From Methanofollis fontis (GTDB taxonomy: Archaea; Halobacteriota; Methanomicrobia; Methanomicrobiales; Methanofollaceae): DNA of 64,000 nucleotides. The notes under the pieces were generated by a model. The model was not told the origin of the DNA. It saw nothing but the letters and a program-made list of their open reading frames with translations, and searched no databases. The stretch's first letter is position 1. Every line of letters starts with the position of its first letter. The position numbers and the translations under genes are program-made. The stretch spans positions 186,001 through 250,000 of the forward strand of contig NZ_PGCL01000002.1 in assembly GCF_004297185.1 (NCBI RefSeq), written 5' to 3'. Positions 32,927-38,574 of the stretch are shown here, piece after piece.

Positions 32927-33439
32927 TCAGTTCAGTTCTTTATCCTCGATGACCACGCGCGTCGGGGACGGGAGCTTGTAGCCGCCGTGCCTGAGGGCGT
33001 CCTTCGCCTTCTCGATGTACTGAGGCGAGGTATAAATGGTAAAGATCTTCTGATCGGGGTGGACGCGTGCGGCCGTCCCGACGGCCTTGCCGAATGCCAT
33101 CCGCATCCCTTCAGAAACACGGTCTGCACCGGCGCCGGTCGCCTGCTTGTTCTCACGCAGCACATGATGGGGGTAGGTGCGGAGCTTGAGGTGATAGTTC
33201 ATACGCCCGATTTCCTTCATCAGGCGCCTGTTGATGTTCACACGCGCCGCTTCAAAGGCGGTGTGACGGATCTGACAGGCTTCAAGCACCAAAAGGCTTG
33301 CCTCCACCGGGAATTCAGCGCTGGTGTTTCCCATATCGAACTGGACGATCTTGCTGCCTGGGATACCGCCCATGTATTCTCGCCGCGTATATGCTTTCTT
33401 AGCGAGATTCCTGTACATTACTCCTGGTTTTCTGACCAT
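32927..33439 (-). CDS. rpl10e: 50S ribosomal protein L10e (uL16)
   Basis: The 170-residue protein is the archaeal homologue of bacterial L16 and eukaryotic L10, placed near the A site of the large subunit. It starts [20 protein letters not shown] and contains the conserved [23 protein letters not shown] and [16 protein letters not shown]. It is monocistronic: a TATA element (33470-33478) lies 31-39 nt before the start, GTGAGG precedes the ATG, and a T-run follows the stop. Confidence 0.97.
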
Positions 33440-33500: not shown

Positions 33501-34262
33501 TTACTGGGAGGATTCCTCCCGCCTCTGGATCAGGGCGAGCACATCCCGCCTGATCTCCGCGAACTCCACACTCGTCCGGTCACGCGGCCGGGGGAGGGGA
33601 ACCTCGATGATCTCCTGTATCCGCGACGGACGGGTCGAGAGCACGAAGATCCGATCAGAAAGAAAGACCGCCTCGTCCACTGAATGGGTCACGAATATCA
33701 CCATTTTGCGGGTCTTCTCCCAGATCTCCAGCAGCTCGGTCTGCATGGTGTTGCGCGTCTGGGCGTCGAGGGCGCCGAAGGGTTCGTCCATCAGCAGCAC
33801 CTCTGGCTCGACGCAGAGGGCGCGCGCCACGGCGACCCGCTGGCGCATCCCTCCCGAGAGCTCGTAGGGGTAGGAGGTCTCGAACTCGTCGAGCCCGACG
33901 AGATGGAGGTACCGACGCGCCGCTTCCATCCGCTCCTCCTTCCCGACACCCTGCACCTCAAGCCCGAAGGCGATGTTGTCGATGACCGTCCGCCAGGGAT
34001 AGAGCGAGTACTCCTGGAAGATCATCGCCATCCGCGGCGACGGTCCGGTGATCACCCTGCCGTCGAGTTCGGCCCGTCCACCCGAGGGGGTGTCCAGACC
34101 GGCGATGATGCGCAGGAGCGTCGTCTTGCCGCAGCCCGAGGGGCCGACGATACAGATGAACTCCTTGTCCCTGACCGTGAACGAGATGTCGCCGAGGGCG
34201 GTGACCTGCTCGCCCTTGTCGGTGACAAAGGACTTGCTCAGATTGCTGACCTTCATCTCCAT
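33501..34262 (-). CDS. ABC transporter ATPase, SsuB/TauB type
   Basis: The 253-residue ATPase powers a TauT/NitT-family importer. It has Walker A GPSGCGKTT, the Q-loop FQEYSLYPW, signature LSGGMRQRVAVARAL, Walker B VLLMDEPFGALD and the H-loop VTHSVDEAVFLSD. It is the last gene of the three-gene unit binding protein-permease-ATPase, 13 nt after the permease. The subfamily transports sulfonates, nitrate, thiamine precursors or similar anions and small organics; the substrate here is unknown. Confidence 0.93.
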   Translation of the reverse strand: MEMKVSNLSKSFVTDKGEQVTALGDISFTVRDKEFICIVGPSGCGKTTLLRIIAGLDTPSGGRAELDGRVITGPSPRMAMIFQEYSLYPWRTVIDNIAFGLEVQGVGKEERMEAARRYLHLVGLDEFETSYPYELSGGMRQRVAVARALCVEPEVLLMDEPFGALDAQTRNTMQTELLEIWEKTRKMVIFVTHSVDEAVFLSDRIFVLSTRPSRIQEIIEVPLPRPRDRTSVEFAEIRRDVLALIQRREESSQ

Positions 34263-34275
34263 ATCTGTCTCCTCC

Positions 34276-35037
34276 TCAATGGGCCCGCCCCTGCCACCTG
34301 AACTGCCGCTGCTCGACCACCCTGAACAGGCTGTCCAGGGCGAGGGCGATGAGACCGATGACGATCATGCCCGCGATGATCACCTGCATCTGGCCGAGGT
34401 TGTAGGCGGCCATGATCATATAGCCAAGCCCTGATGTGGTGCCGGGGAGCATCTCGGCGGCCACCACGCACTGCCATGCGATGCCCAGACCGACCCGCAG
34501 TCCGGTCCAGATGGTGGGTGCGGCGGCCGGCAGCACGACCTTTGCCATGATCTGCCCTTCGCTCGCCCCGTAAACGGTCGCTGTCTCGAGCCAGGTCCGG
34601 TTCACGCTCTTTACGCCCGCAATGGTGTTGAGCAGGATCGGGAAGAAGGCCCCGATGAAGATGATGAAGACGATCGAGGTGAGCCCGATCTTGAACCATG
34701 CAAGGGCGATCGGCAGCCATGCCAGTGGGGGGATGGGACGGAGGAGCTGGATGACCGGGTCGGTCAGGTCCTGGACGATGCTGTATCGCCCCATCACAAT
34801 GCCGAGCGGTATGGCGACGGCCGATGCGACCAGGAAGCCGAGGAGCACACGGAAAAGACTGCGCTCCGCCCCCTCGAGCAGGCTTCCGCTCCCCAGGATG
34901 TTCTTTGTGGGTTCGAGCAGGACAGCGAGCACGTCCTCAATGGGCGGCAGGATAAACGGGTTGTTCAGGGCAATGGCGACTGCTTCCCATCCAAAAAGAA
35001 TGATGATGGGAAGGATGATTTTCAGGTAATTTCTCAT
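34276..35037 (-). CDS. ABC transporter permease, SsuC/TauC type
   Basis: The 253-residue membrane protein has about six helices and the binding-protein-dependent permease loop in GASEGQIMAKVVLPAAAPTIWTGLR, shortened here to its EAA-like core GASEG...P. The order helix-loop and length agree with SsuC. Its ATG overlaps the stop of the substrate-binding gene by 4 nt, which shows that the unusual end of that gene is a real stop used in translation coupling. Confidence 0.92.
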   Translation of the reverse strand: MRNYLKIILPIIILFGWEAVAIALNNPFILPPIEDVLAVLLEPTKNILGSGSLLEGAERSLFRVLLGFLVASAVAIPLGIVMGRYSIVQDLTDPVIQLLRPIPPLAWLPIALAWFKIGLTSIVFIIFIGAFFPILLNTIAGVKSVNRTWLETATVYGASEGQIMAKVVLPAAAPTIWTGLRVGLGIAWQCVVAAEMLPGTTSGLGYMIMAAYNLGQMQVIIAGMIVIGLIALALDSLFRVVEQRQFRWQGRAH

Positions 35038-36245
35038 TGAGCTTCTTTCACCACCACATTGCTGTCACCGAGTGCGGCACGGAGCTGCACGTCCTGGATC
35101 GAGCCCTTGGGCGGCGATGCAATCTTCAATGGTTTACCCTCAGCCGCACGCTGCTCCGCCCATGCAATAAAGCTCTGCCAGTCGTCTGCAGGTGCATCGG
35201 CTGAAACAACAAGACCCGATCCTTCCGTCTGTAATGGGTGGAGAATCTTTATAGGTGTTCCTTTGTCGATAGCGGTGATCGCCGGCGGTGTTCCGACCAG
35301 GGCGATCTGGAGGGTGTCCTGTGCGGCAAGCGTCATCAGCTGCGATCCGCCCTCGCCCTTCACGAGTTTGACATTGGCCACCTTGACGCCGTTGACGAAC
35401 AGTTCGGCGTTGTCGACGGCGCCGCTGCCTTCAGAGGCGGGCTTCAGGGCGATGCCATAGGTCTTCTCGAAGTACTCCCACTCCTTGATCGCCACGAACA
35501 GGGGTGCATGGTGGTCTGAGGGCAGGTAGCCGACGGTGATGGTGCCGGCATCGGCGGGTGTTGCGATGGTGCCGTTTGCGATCATCGCCTTCGCCTGTTC
35601 ATACGGGCCGAAGTCGAAGAGTTTGCTGTTCACCTCCGCATCGTCGGCGTCCTTCAGCGAACCGGTGATATACCCGAGGTCGCGGAGGGCCACGACGAAG
35701 TTGTCGTTGCTCGTGATCCATGCCTCCGAGGGTTCGGTGGTGAACTTCAGCGTCGGGATCGACTCCTTCAGCACCTCCACCGAGGAGACGGTGACATCCC
35801 CGAAGGTCATGTCGTCGCCGCCGTAGAGCCAGTCGGCGCTGATCTCTGCGGCACGGTCCGGGTTCTCGATGATGTAGTCGTCAGCGGCGATCATCAGTGC
35901 CGAGAAGGCGTTGACCAGGTCGGCGTTCTCCTGGATCTGGTCCTCGCGGGCGGTAAGGGCGCAGCAGGTGTGGTCGGTCCACATCCCTGCCGGCGGCAGG
36001 TCCTGCGAGTAGGAGACCACCTTGCCGATGCCGCTCACCGTGGCGACGGCGACAAAGGGCTGCCAGGCCATATATCCGTCGATCTGATCGGTGGAGAGGA
36101 GCATCGGCATCGGTCCGGTCGCCGAGTAGATCACCTCGACCTCTGTCTCTCCGCCCGTTGAGGGCTGTTCGCCGGTGCATCCGGCAACGCACAGGACTGC
36201 CACGATCGCAATAACGAGCGCAATGGCTGTCTTCGTATGGGTCAT
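35034..36245 (-). CDS. Substrate-binding lipoprotein with apparently permuted lobes
   Basis: The 403-residue protein has a lipoprotein signal with lipobox ending in C23. The rest resembles TauA/SsuA-type binding proteins but in the wrong order. Residues ~36-219 match the canonical C-terminal part (STDQIDGYMAWQPF, HTCCALTARE, LFDFGPYEQA), while residues ~235-403 match the canonical N-terminal part (TITVGYLPSDHHAPLFVA, ALVGTPPAI, PPKGSIQDVQLRAAL). The protein ends VVVKEAQ, exactly where a normal family member would continue into the segment found here near residue 40. It heads the transporter operon, behind a TATA box at 36266-36275. It should bind ligand if the fold tolerates the permutation. 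Confidence 0.88.
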   Translation of the reverse strand: MTHTKTAIALVIAIVAVLCVAGCTGEQPSTGGETEVEVIYSATGPMPMLLSTDQIDGYMAWQPFVAVATVSGIGKVVSYSQDLPPAGMWTDHTCCALTAREDQIQENADLVNAFSALMIAADDYIIENPDRAAEISADWLYGGDDMTFGDVTVSSVEVLKESIPTLKFTTEPSEAWITSNDNFVVALRDLGYITGSLKDADDAEVNSKLFDFGPYEQAKAMIANGTIATPADAGTITVGYLPSDHHAPLFVAIKEWEYFEKTYGIALKPASEGSGAVDNAELFVNGVKVANVKLVKGEGGSQLMTLAAQDTLQIALVGTPPAITAIDKGTPIKILHPLQTEGSGLVVSADAPADDWQSFIAWAEQRAAEGKPLKIASPPKGSIQDVQLRAALGDSNVVVKEAQ

Positions 36246-36275: not shown

Positions 36276-36432
36276 GGTCGTTATCCTGCCGATCTTTTCT
36301 GTCGGTATGGGAATATTTTGAGAATAATTTGTCGCATTGTGTCTCTATATCTTCTTTCTGTCCTTGACTTCCCACTATAGACTCTGGACAGATGGGATGT
36401 TATTATCTCCTATTTTTCCCAATGGTGGAGAT

Positions 36433-36966
36433 ATGATGCAGGCAGAACCGGTTGACCGCCTCCTCAGGGCCGCCCTTGTCTCGGACGAGGAGTTCACCGC
36501 CCTCCTCAATCATATCCTGAAGGCGGAACTGCGGGTGGGTGTGCGTGAACTCTCGGAGCGGAGCGGGATCGCACAGAGCACCCTTTATAAAGTGCTCAAC
36601 GGGCAGCGCTCTCCGACGCTCTCCACGTTGCGGCAGATCCTCAATGCCGTACGATCGTTTTCGAGGTCGCCGGAAGAGGCGTTTATCGGACTGATCGCCG
36701 CCCGGTATGTCCTGGAGTCCATCCAGGAACGTATGGTCGTCATCGACGGTCAGCAGTTCAGGGTGCGGGAGTACCCGGTCCATACCTTCGAGGACACTAT
36801 CGTTGCCGCTGTGCGCGCCGAGCGGGAGGGGGCGATCGCTATCGTTTGCGCCCCGATCGCCTCCTCCACCATCGAGCAGGTGATCCGCATACCGGTGACC
36901 ACGATCGTCCCGAGGGACAGCGTCCAGCGCGCCATCGAGGCGGCGGCCCGCAAGGCCTGGATGTAA
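36433..36966 (+). CDS. XRE-family transcriptional regulator
   Basis: The 177-residue protein has a Cro/CI helix-turn-helix at residues ~25-75 (VGVRELSERSGIAQSTLYKVLNGQRSPTLSTL in outline: SGIAQSTLYKVLNGQ) and a C-terminal effector domain with AIVCAPIASSTIEQVIRIPV and a basic end. It resembles archaeal regulators of the COG1709 type. Two adjacent ATG codons follow GGTGGAG; the first is chosen. It is transcribed divergently from the ABC-transporter operon and is a natural candidate for its regulator. The ligand is unknown. Confidence 0.85.
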   Translation: MMQAEPVDRLLRAALVSDEEFTALLNHILKAELRVGVRELSERSGIAQSTLYKVLNGQRSPTLSTLRQILNAVRSFSRSPEEAFIGLIAARYVLESIQERMVVIDGQQFRVREYPVHTFEDTIVAAVRAEREGAIAIVCAPIASSTIEQVIRIPVTTIVPRDSVQRAIEAAARKAWM

Positions 36967-37089
36967 ATTGGGGGATTGTCCGGTCGGGGTGTCACATGCA
37001 CATCCGTCAGGACAATGCAATGCCCTCTTCTCCTCTCTCGGACCCGCCCCCACAGACTCATATTATCTGAAACCGCAACAGTACACTCG

Positions 37090-38574
37090 ATGCAACGCGA
37101 TCTGGTGCGGCGGGGCAGGCTGAGTGACGACCGCACGGGCGAGGTGGCGCACTTCCTCTCCTCGATGGCGGCCGATCACCGGATTGCCGATATGGATGTG
37201 CTGGTTGATATGGCCCATCTCCTGATGCTGGAGCGACAGGGGATCATGGTGACCGATGCGGCACAGGCGATTATGGGAGCGCTGCTCGGGTTCCACCGGG
37301 ACGGCGTCCCGCCCGAGGCCTATGACGAAGAGTTCGAGGACATCCACGCCGGAAAAGAGGCGGCGCTCATCGCCCGCGTCGGCGAGGAGTTCGGGGGCCG
37401 CCTCCACATGGGGCGCTCGCGCAACGACGAGGTGGCGACCTGCATCAGGATGCGGCTGAGGGACGACCTCATCGCCCTGATGGAGGAGACGAACGACCTC
37501 AGGGGGGTGCTGCTCGCGCTCGCCGGTGAACACCGGGAGACGATCATGCCCGGTTTCACCCATCTCCAGCATGCCCAGCCCACCACCCTGGCCCACCACC
37601 TCCTGGCCTATGAGGCGGCGTTCGGGCGGGACGTCGGGCGGCTGAGAGACGCCCTGGTGCGGCTGAACGAGTGCCCCCTCGGGGCCGCCGCCTTCGCCTC
37701 CACCGGCTATCCGATCGACCGGGAGATGACCGCATCCCTCCTGGGGTTCGACCGCCCGATGGGCAACTCGATGGACGCCGTTTCCACGCGTGATTTCGCC
37801 CTCGAGGCGTTATCGGCCTGTGCTGTCGAGATGGCAACGCTGAGCCGGTTCTGCGAGGAGATCATCCTCTGGAGCAGTGCATTCGTCCGCTTTGTCACGC
37901 TCTCCGACGGCTACTCCTCCACGAGTTCGATCATGCCCCAGAAGAAGAACCCGGACACCGCCGAGATCAGCCGTGCGAAGGCCGGCACCGTAGCAGGGGC
38001 GTTCACCGCCGCCCTGACGATCACGCGGGGGCTGCCGATGAGTTACAACCGCGACCTGCAGGAGCTCACCCCCCACCTCTGGCAGGGCGTGACCGCCGCA
38101 CGGGAGAGTGTTGCGGTGTTTGCCGGGCTGCTCAGGACGGCCGCGTTCCACCCGGAACCGATGGCCGAAGAGGCGGCCGTCGGCTTCTCGACGGCGACCG
38201 AACTGGCGGACGTGCTGGTGCGCGAGTTCGGCCTCCCCTTCAGGACGGCGCATTCGGTCGTCGGCCGCGCCGTCAGGAAGGGGGCGCTTGATCTCGATAC
38301 AGTCGAGGCGTCGGCGGTCGAGGTGGCGGGCATATCGCTCTGCGACCGTGGACTGACGGCGGAACGGCTGGCTTCGGCGCTCGATCCGGCGGTCTCCGTC
38401 GCCTCCCGCGGCATCTGCGGCGGTCCTGCCCCTGCAGAGACTGCCCGGGCGATCACCGAACGGGAAGATGCGCTCAAGGACGACCGGCAGTGGGTCGCCG
38501 GACGAAGAGAGGCGGTGGCGGCGGCGATCGGCCGCCTTGTCACCGAATGTGAGAGGTTGTGTGTGCATGAGTGA
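37090..38574 (+). CDS. argH: Argininosuccinate lyase
   Basis: ArgH splits argininosuccinate into arginine and fumarate. The 494-residue protein has the superfamily motifs HMGRSRNDEVAT, THLQHAQP (with the catalytic His near residue 161) and the flexible signature loop SSIMPQKKN at 279-287. The start MQRDLVRRGRLSD agrees with the archaeal family; the frame is open upstream but without similarity. It overlaps gatD by 8 nt, so arginine synthesis and amidotransferase genes are co-transcribed. Fumarate released here would feed the fumarase of the TCA operon. Confidence 0.95.
   Translation: MQRDLVRRGRLSDDRTGEVAHFLSSMAADHRIADMDVLVDMAHLLMLERQGIMVTDAAQAIMGALLGFHRDGVPPEAYDEEFEDIHAGKEAALIARVGEEFGGRLHMGRSRNDEVATCIRMRLRDDLIALMEETNDLRGVLLALAGEHRETIMPGFTHLQHAQPTTLAHHLLAYEAAFGRDVGRLRDALVRLNECPLGAAAFASTGYPIDREMTASLLGFDRPMGNSMDAVSTRDFALEALSACAVEMATLSRFCEEIILWSSAFVRFVTLSDGYSSTSSIMPQKKNPDTAEISRAKAGTVAGAFTAALTITRGLPMSYNRDLQELTPHLWQGVTAARESVAVFAGLLRTAAFHPEPMAEEAAVGFSTATELADVLVREFGLPFRTAHSVVGRAVRKGALDLDTVEASAVEVAGISLCDRGLTAERLASALDPAVSVASRGICGGPAPAETARAITEREDALKDDRQWVAGRREAVAAAIGRLVTECERLCVHE

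Follow-up and report, generated by a model that had tools for sequence, protein, structure and literature searches.

A circularly permuted TauA/SsuA/NMT1-type substrate-binding protein in Methanomicrobiales, as read from profile comparisons

The window analysed here, a stretch of 64,000 nucleotides from the genome of Methanofollis fontis (2.36 Mb, 22 contigs), contains a gene whose product was confirmed by profile comparisons as a circularly permuted substrate-binding protein of the TauA/SsuA/NMT1 type. The two halves of a canonical NMT1/SsuA-type protein have been swapped without loss of sequence, a short linker connecting the old ends, and the product would be a working binding lipoprotein of an ABC importer of the TauABC/SsuABC type. 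Permuted and canonical versions would share one job, namely to bind, on the outside of the membrane, a small sulfonate that is most likely coenzyme M and to pass it to the permease. One permutation event may have been followed by spread of the gene, along with the permease gene, as operons were exchanged in place between conserved flanks, and the lipid anchor would consequently sit on the opposite lobe compared to the canonical relatives. We consider this explanation as a whole, a naturally permuted and working importer lipoprotein with the role and spread just outlined, to be highly probable. A bolder version is put forward tentatively, with a confidence slightly short of even: a single ancient permutation would have produced a fully functional coenzyme M receptor with its tether on the opposite lobe, which together with its own permease replaced the canonical receptor on repeated occasions at a single conserved locus in methanogens and left close relatives as natural matched pairs. 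The operon and its surroundings contain the following features (coordinates in the window):

35034..36245, minus strand: gene for the permuted substrate-binding protein (403 aa, P0001), from the open reading frame, profile matches and hhalign
36177..36245, minus strand: putative signal peptide, residues 1-23, ending in a lipobox-like VAGC (by inspection)
35589..36149, minus strand: canonical second half placed first, residues 33-219, with the strand VEVIYS, QIDGYMAWQPF and HTCC, up to LFDFGPYEQAK (NCBIfam SsuA profile 128-270; hhalign canonical columns 186-350)
35547..35588, minus strand: linker of about 14 residues from the original C-terminus to the original N-terminus
35037..35546, minus strand: canonical first half placed second, residues 234-403, with ITVGYLPSDH, GTPPAI and KGSIQD, ending in VVVKEAQ (Pfam NMT1_2 profile 7-145; hhalign canonical columns 35-184)
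34276..35037, minus strand: permease (BPD_transp_1, profile match), in the clade of permeases accompanying permuted proteins
33501..34262, minus strand: ABC ATPase of the same operon
32927..33439, minus strand: ribosomal protein L10e/L16 gene, the conserved downstream flank of permuted and canonical operons
36430..36966, plus strand: divergent HTH gene upstream of the operon, a candidate regulator, which also adjoins canonical operons at some of the other methanogen loci
36976..38574, plus strand: argininosuccinate-lyase-like gene, the conserved upstream flank

The stop codon, which an earlier note on this DNA had regarded as genuine, is indeed the end of an open reading frame running from 36245 to 35034 on the minus strand; this TGA and the ATG with which the permease gene begins overlap in the sequence ATGA. 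The Gly-Cys pair at the lipobox-like site is invariant in four aligned relatives. The binding protein of an ABC importer is expected to carry a secretion signal and to be encoded together with a permease and an ATPase, and both were found, the signal by inspection. The HTH protein encoded at 36430-36966 (plus strand) has a conserved C-terminal domain and is 44-46% identical to its counterpart in other methanogens; its gene points away from the transporter in both kinds of locus, canonical as well as permuted, and represents a candidate for a transporter regulator.

The reversed order of the halves was evident from searches with two family profiles. Positions 7-145 of Pfam NMT1_2 matched residues 234-393, and positions 128-270 of the 290 positions of NCBIfam SsuA matched residues 32-186, with whole-protein E-values of 4.6e-27 and 3e-17, respectively; a chance match is therefore excluded. 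The canonical relative L085 matched positions 2-250 of NMT1_2 in one collinear stretch. We then compared the aligned sequences of 56 distinct permuted and 29 canonical proteins with each other by profile-profile comparison (hhalign), which in native order yielded two separate alignments with scores of 160.8 and 146.2 and with the halves crossed. Moving residues 231-403 to the front resulted in one collinear alignment of 296 columns with a score of 297.6 and an E-value of 3.7e-41. The junction, which reads WLKANNVDPD-NDVDIIGMGPG in the canonical and ALGDSNVVVKEAQ-ETEVEVIYSATGP in the rearranged sequence, is continuous after rearrangement, and therefore no sequence is missing. The cut is located in the loop preceding the strand that leads into the QIDG helix.

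These matches, together with the alignments obtained with and without rearrangement, agree with the claim of the earlier note that the halves of a TauA/SsuA-type protein occur in reversed order, and the boundaries given there (residues 36-219 and 235-403, junction near 35543) proved accurate to within a few residues. Its statement on VVVKEAQ holds only in part: this motif does end the permuted protein, but in the normal order it does not stand immediately before STDQIDGYMAW, being separated from it by the strand and helix VEVIYSATGPMPMLL (residues 36-50), which are N-terminal in the permuted protein. The score of 95.9 bits with PF13379 (NMT1_2), compared to a cut-off of 24.7, places the protein in the superfamily, but the N-terminal half, which comes first in NMT1_2- and SsuA-type proteins, comes second here. 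The scores with the NCBIfam equivalog and subfamily models stayed below the cut-offs (62.8 vs. 163.5 bits for SsuA, 26.6 vs. 304 for TauA, 36.4 vs. 300 for SaoX). Order alone would cost a permuted protein score, and this shortfall is at least partly due to the order.

Structure prediction gave models of low confidence, with mean pLDDT values of 50 and 52 for the full-length and the mature protein, respectively (AlphaFold, alignment of four relatives). The better-modelled stretches comprise the helices of the former C-terminus and the former first strands, which form part of one lobe in canonical relatives. Weak structural matches of this low-confidence model were binding proteins with Z-scores of about 5, where values below 8 may mean little; the top three were OpuAC structures (Z 5.1-5.3), which we take as a lead only. 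A Foldseek search with the same low-confidence model returned nothing significant, which is no evidence against the fold, and a sequence search of the PDB gave 21.6 bits with either the rearranged or the native query. The sequence relationship suggests a two-lobe type II fold of the permuted protein.

Genes of the window-like permuted type were present in 100 of 232 Methanomicrobiales genomes (counted by hand from the match list), the great majority of matches extending unbroken over almost the entire query and the few partial ones occurring in fragmented genomes. Many genomes of the phylum have the canonical counterpart, conserved at about 50-63% identity. At E 1e-30 it was detected in 116 of the 232 Methanomicrobiales genomes, and no carrier of the permuted type was among these, bearing in mind that the genomes share ancestry; the remaining 16, mostly incomplete ones, contained neither form. 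Among 393 sampled genomes of the phylum, the only carrier of the window-like type outside Methanomicrobiales was G369. Bacteria were covered by a scan of short peptide patterns and by plasmids, the latter giving only partial matches to binding proteins (23-28% of the query), and a search of viral contigs revealed no further relatives.

At loci with long enough flanks, permuted and canonical operons lie, as a rule, between an argininosuccinate-lyase-like gene, often accompanied by the HTH gene, and the L10e gene. At this same locus, the genomes carry either a permuted or a canonical operon, and never both among those detected. Three genera (g30, g34 and g40) contain both states; in g34, two single-contig genomes (G157 and G158) are in opposite states. 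Comparing a permuted (G225) with a canonical (G223) genome of genus g40, the DNA similarity amounts to about 71% up to the binding-protein gene, is absent over this gene and the permease gene, and resumes inside the ATPase gene to continue through L10e and beyond. This is the pattern that an in-place exchange would leave.

Several loci showed unusual arrangements. Genome G021 contains a tandem pair of permuted binding proteins upstream of a permease (L039:519-3221), and genome G131 a divergent permuted binding protein (L038:2665-3948) for which no window-like permease or ATPase was found within 7 kb around. Two other genomes code for canonical-order binding proteins in large frames: one near the end of a 1170-residue frame after repeats resembling a right-handed beta-helix (L089:4318-7827, G416), the other in an 819-residue frame, where it is followed by a PT-rich linker and then repeat-like domains (L088:5641-8097, G412).

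By profile matches and nearest solved structures, the sequence family is that of receptors for sulfonates, taurine and nitrate. The ssuA and ssuC genes of Methanosarcina acetivorans have been assigned on the basis of transcripts, which are raised on coenzyme M starvation, to a coenzyme M-specific ABC transporter (PMC12068725); the main text of this paper gives no locus tag (PMC12068725). A single-contig genome of 5.75 Mb that is probably M. acetivorans (G536) contains one member of the family, adjoining an HTH gene of the same type, and the canonical relative probably corresponds to the SsuA of that transporter. On the L078 contig of G369, the permuted protein gene follows genes which we take from their sequences to be comA, comB and comDE. 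Coenzyme M or a close sulfonate is the likely ligand of the permuted protein, because the canonical relative is the probable SsuA of the coenzyme M transporter and the L078 neighbourhood is com-like; locus and family point the same way. ComA was not found in the genome of the window, and its organism may possibly use a different route to coenzyme M.

The permuted protein may instead be functional and bind something else, such as taurine, another sulfonate, a nitrate-like anion or a metabolite, in which case the mutual exclusion would reflect shared ancestry of the locus only. The weak matches of the SsuA, TauA and SaoX models, all below their cut-offs, would fit such a ligand, as would the nitrate-transport proteins among the solved structures nearest to the canonical relative and the restriction of coenzyme M genes, among the permuted loci read, to the G369 locus (L067/L078). 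We nevertheless regard this as fairly unlikely, considering that permuted and canonical forms occupy the same locus in mutually exclusive fashion, that putative comA, comB and comDE genes precede the permuted gene in L078, and that the M. acetivorans transporter bears its name in the literature (PMC12068725).

The G369 locus also differs in its operon structure. The permease of permuted type in L078 is 64-66% identical to its relatives, and the ATPase clusters with those from canonical operons of the genus to which G369 belongs. Between these two genes lies a second permease with an apparent frameshift (L078:998-1991). The simplest reading would be that the permuted protein and its permease entered a native operon in G369; as this genome is fragmented, the arrangement might conceivably also reflect a mixed contig.

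A second group of permuted proteins, mostly 30-38% identical and of the same reversed order, was present in 28 genomes (counted by hand from the list). In the seven loci compared, the permease (about 52% identical to that of the window) and the ATPase (about 44%) are particular to this group, and the genes that flank the window operon are all missing. One distant-group protein is split into two matches (G191:C10:44998-46136) and may derive from a broken gene. A quick unrooted tree of the binding proteins, calculated without bootstrap, contains one change between canonical and permuted order, and the permeases accompanying the two permuted groups fall together on one side of a branch supported at 100% (quick unrooted tree without bootstrap). 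The simplest reading would be a single origin of the permutation, because the distant group is permuted as well and the permeases form a single clade. The ATPases of permuted operons stand apart from the canonical ones in the ATPase tree, except that of L078. A scenario for Methanomicrobiales in which binding protein and permease were swapped and the ATPase was kept runs against this tree. Because the ATPases of permuted operons group apart from the canonical ones, it was probably transferred along with the other genes, in the older exchanges at least.

Concerning the event itself, the C-terminal strand of the distant group is similar to the N-terminal one, but in the ranking of places the N-terminal one comes only 4th of 388; a terminal redundancy left as a fossil of tandem duplication with loss of the outer halves, the origin proposed in the earlier note, is only suggestive. 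Halves from two different binding-protein genes might also have been fused in reversed order, and since both belong to one superfamily, fused halves of paralogues would look alike. Such a fusion is improbable, as the de-permuted sequence is collinear over the entire canonical protein with no segment lost, and in the loci read the two halves show similar identity to the same canonical proteins.

A misassembly, frameshift or read error in the window genome, which the earlier note had named as a possible refutation, can be dismissed as virtually inconceivable, given the open frame with its stop overlapping the permease start, relatives of the same order in many independent genomes across Methanomicrobiales, and a dN/dS ratio of about 0.2. 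The same order, which that note had suggested looking for in related genomes, was found in 60 proteins from the loci first fetched, next to 8 canonical ones, and occurs at 43-85% identity in many independent genomes, several of which consist of one contig. Against close relatives, the dN/dS ratio of the window gene ranged from 0.14 to 0.25 and was below 1 in both halves; the permuted gene is therefore under purifying selection.

With about half of the Methanomicrobiales in each state, natural pairs are available for studying how the order of the chain influences folding, lipid anchoring, docking and substrate choice of an ABC importer. Should coenzyme M be the ligand, the protein would also supply the key cofactor of methane formation. 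Scores below the NCBIfam cut-offs make such permuted proteins easily misnamed.

Searches of open-licence literature revealed no description of a permuted binding protein of the NMT1/SsuA family or from a methanogen, in agreement with the earlier note, which knew of no example in the TauA/SsuA family; permutants are known in other binding-protein families (PMC4990184, PMC2395249). Among these, the glycine-betaine binding proteins OpuAC (Bacillus subtilis) and ProX are circular permutants of each other (PMC2395249). OpuAC differs from the window protein in family and ligand; PF04069 (OpuAC) gave no match with the latter, and 18.1 and 11.1 bits, below the cut-off of 21.2, with two distant permuted relatives. 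In Treponema pallidum, TpMglB-2 (Tp0684) represents a permuted binding lipoprotein of type I ("Type Ic / Cluster Bc"), spread over related species, whose authors proposed that membrane tethering may have favoured permutation (PMC4990184). Like the window protein, it is a naturally permuted binding lipoprotein of an ABC importer (PMC4990184), but it has a type I fold and a sugar ligand, and only the first three strands of one lobe are moved, a part that matches poorly in sequence. The nearest solved structures by sequence, TauA/SsuA (6ssy, 2x26, 3uif) and 3un6, are of canonical order, and the best-matching stretch is confined to a portion of one half of the permuted protein. The closest comparison is offered by the canonical SsuA-type proteins of methanogens (the families of L045 and L085, and SsuA of M. 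acetivorans), which belong to the same superfamily, occupy the same locus in Methanomicrobiales with the same neighbours, and share the motifs GYxPSxH, GTxP/GAAP, GxIQD, QIDG and HxCC with the permuted form. They differ from it by the normal order of the halves, an identity of about 31% after rearrangement and a permease that is only about 39% identical. Natural permutants for which sister species offer an unpermuted counterpart at the same locus for comparison are seemingly rare.
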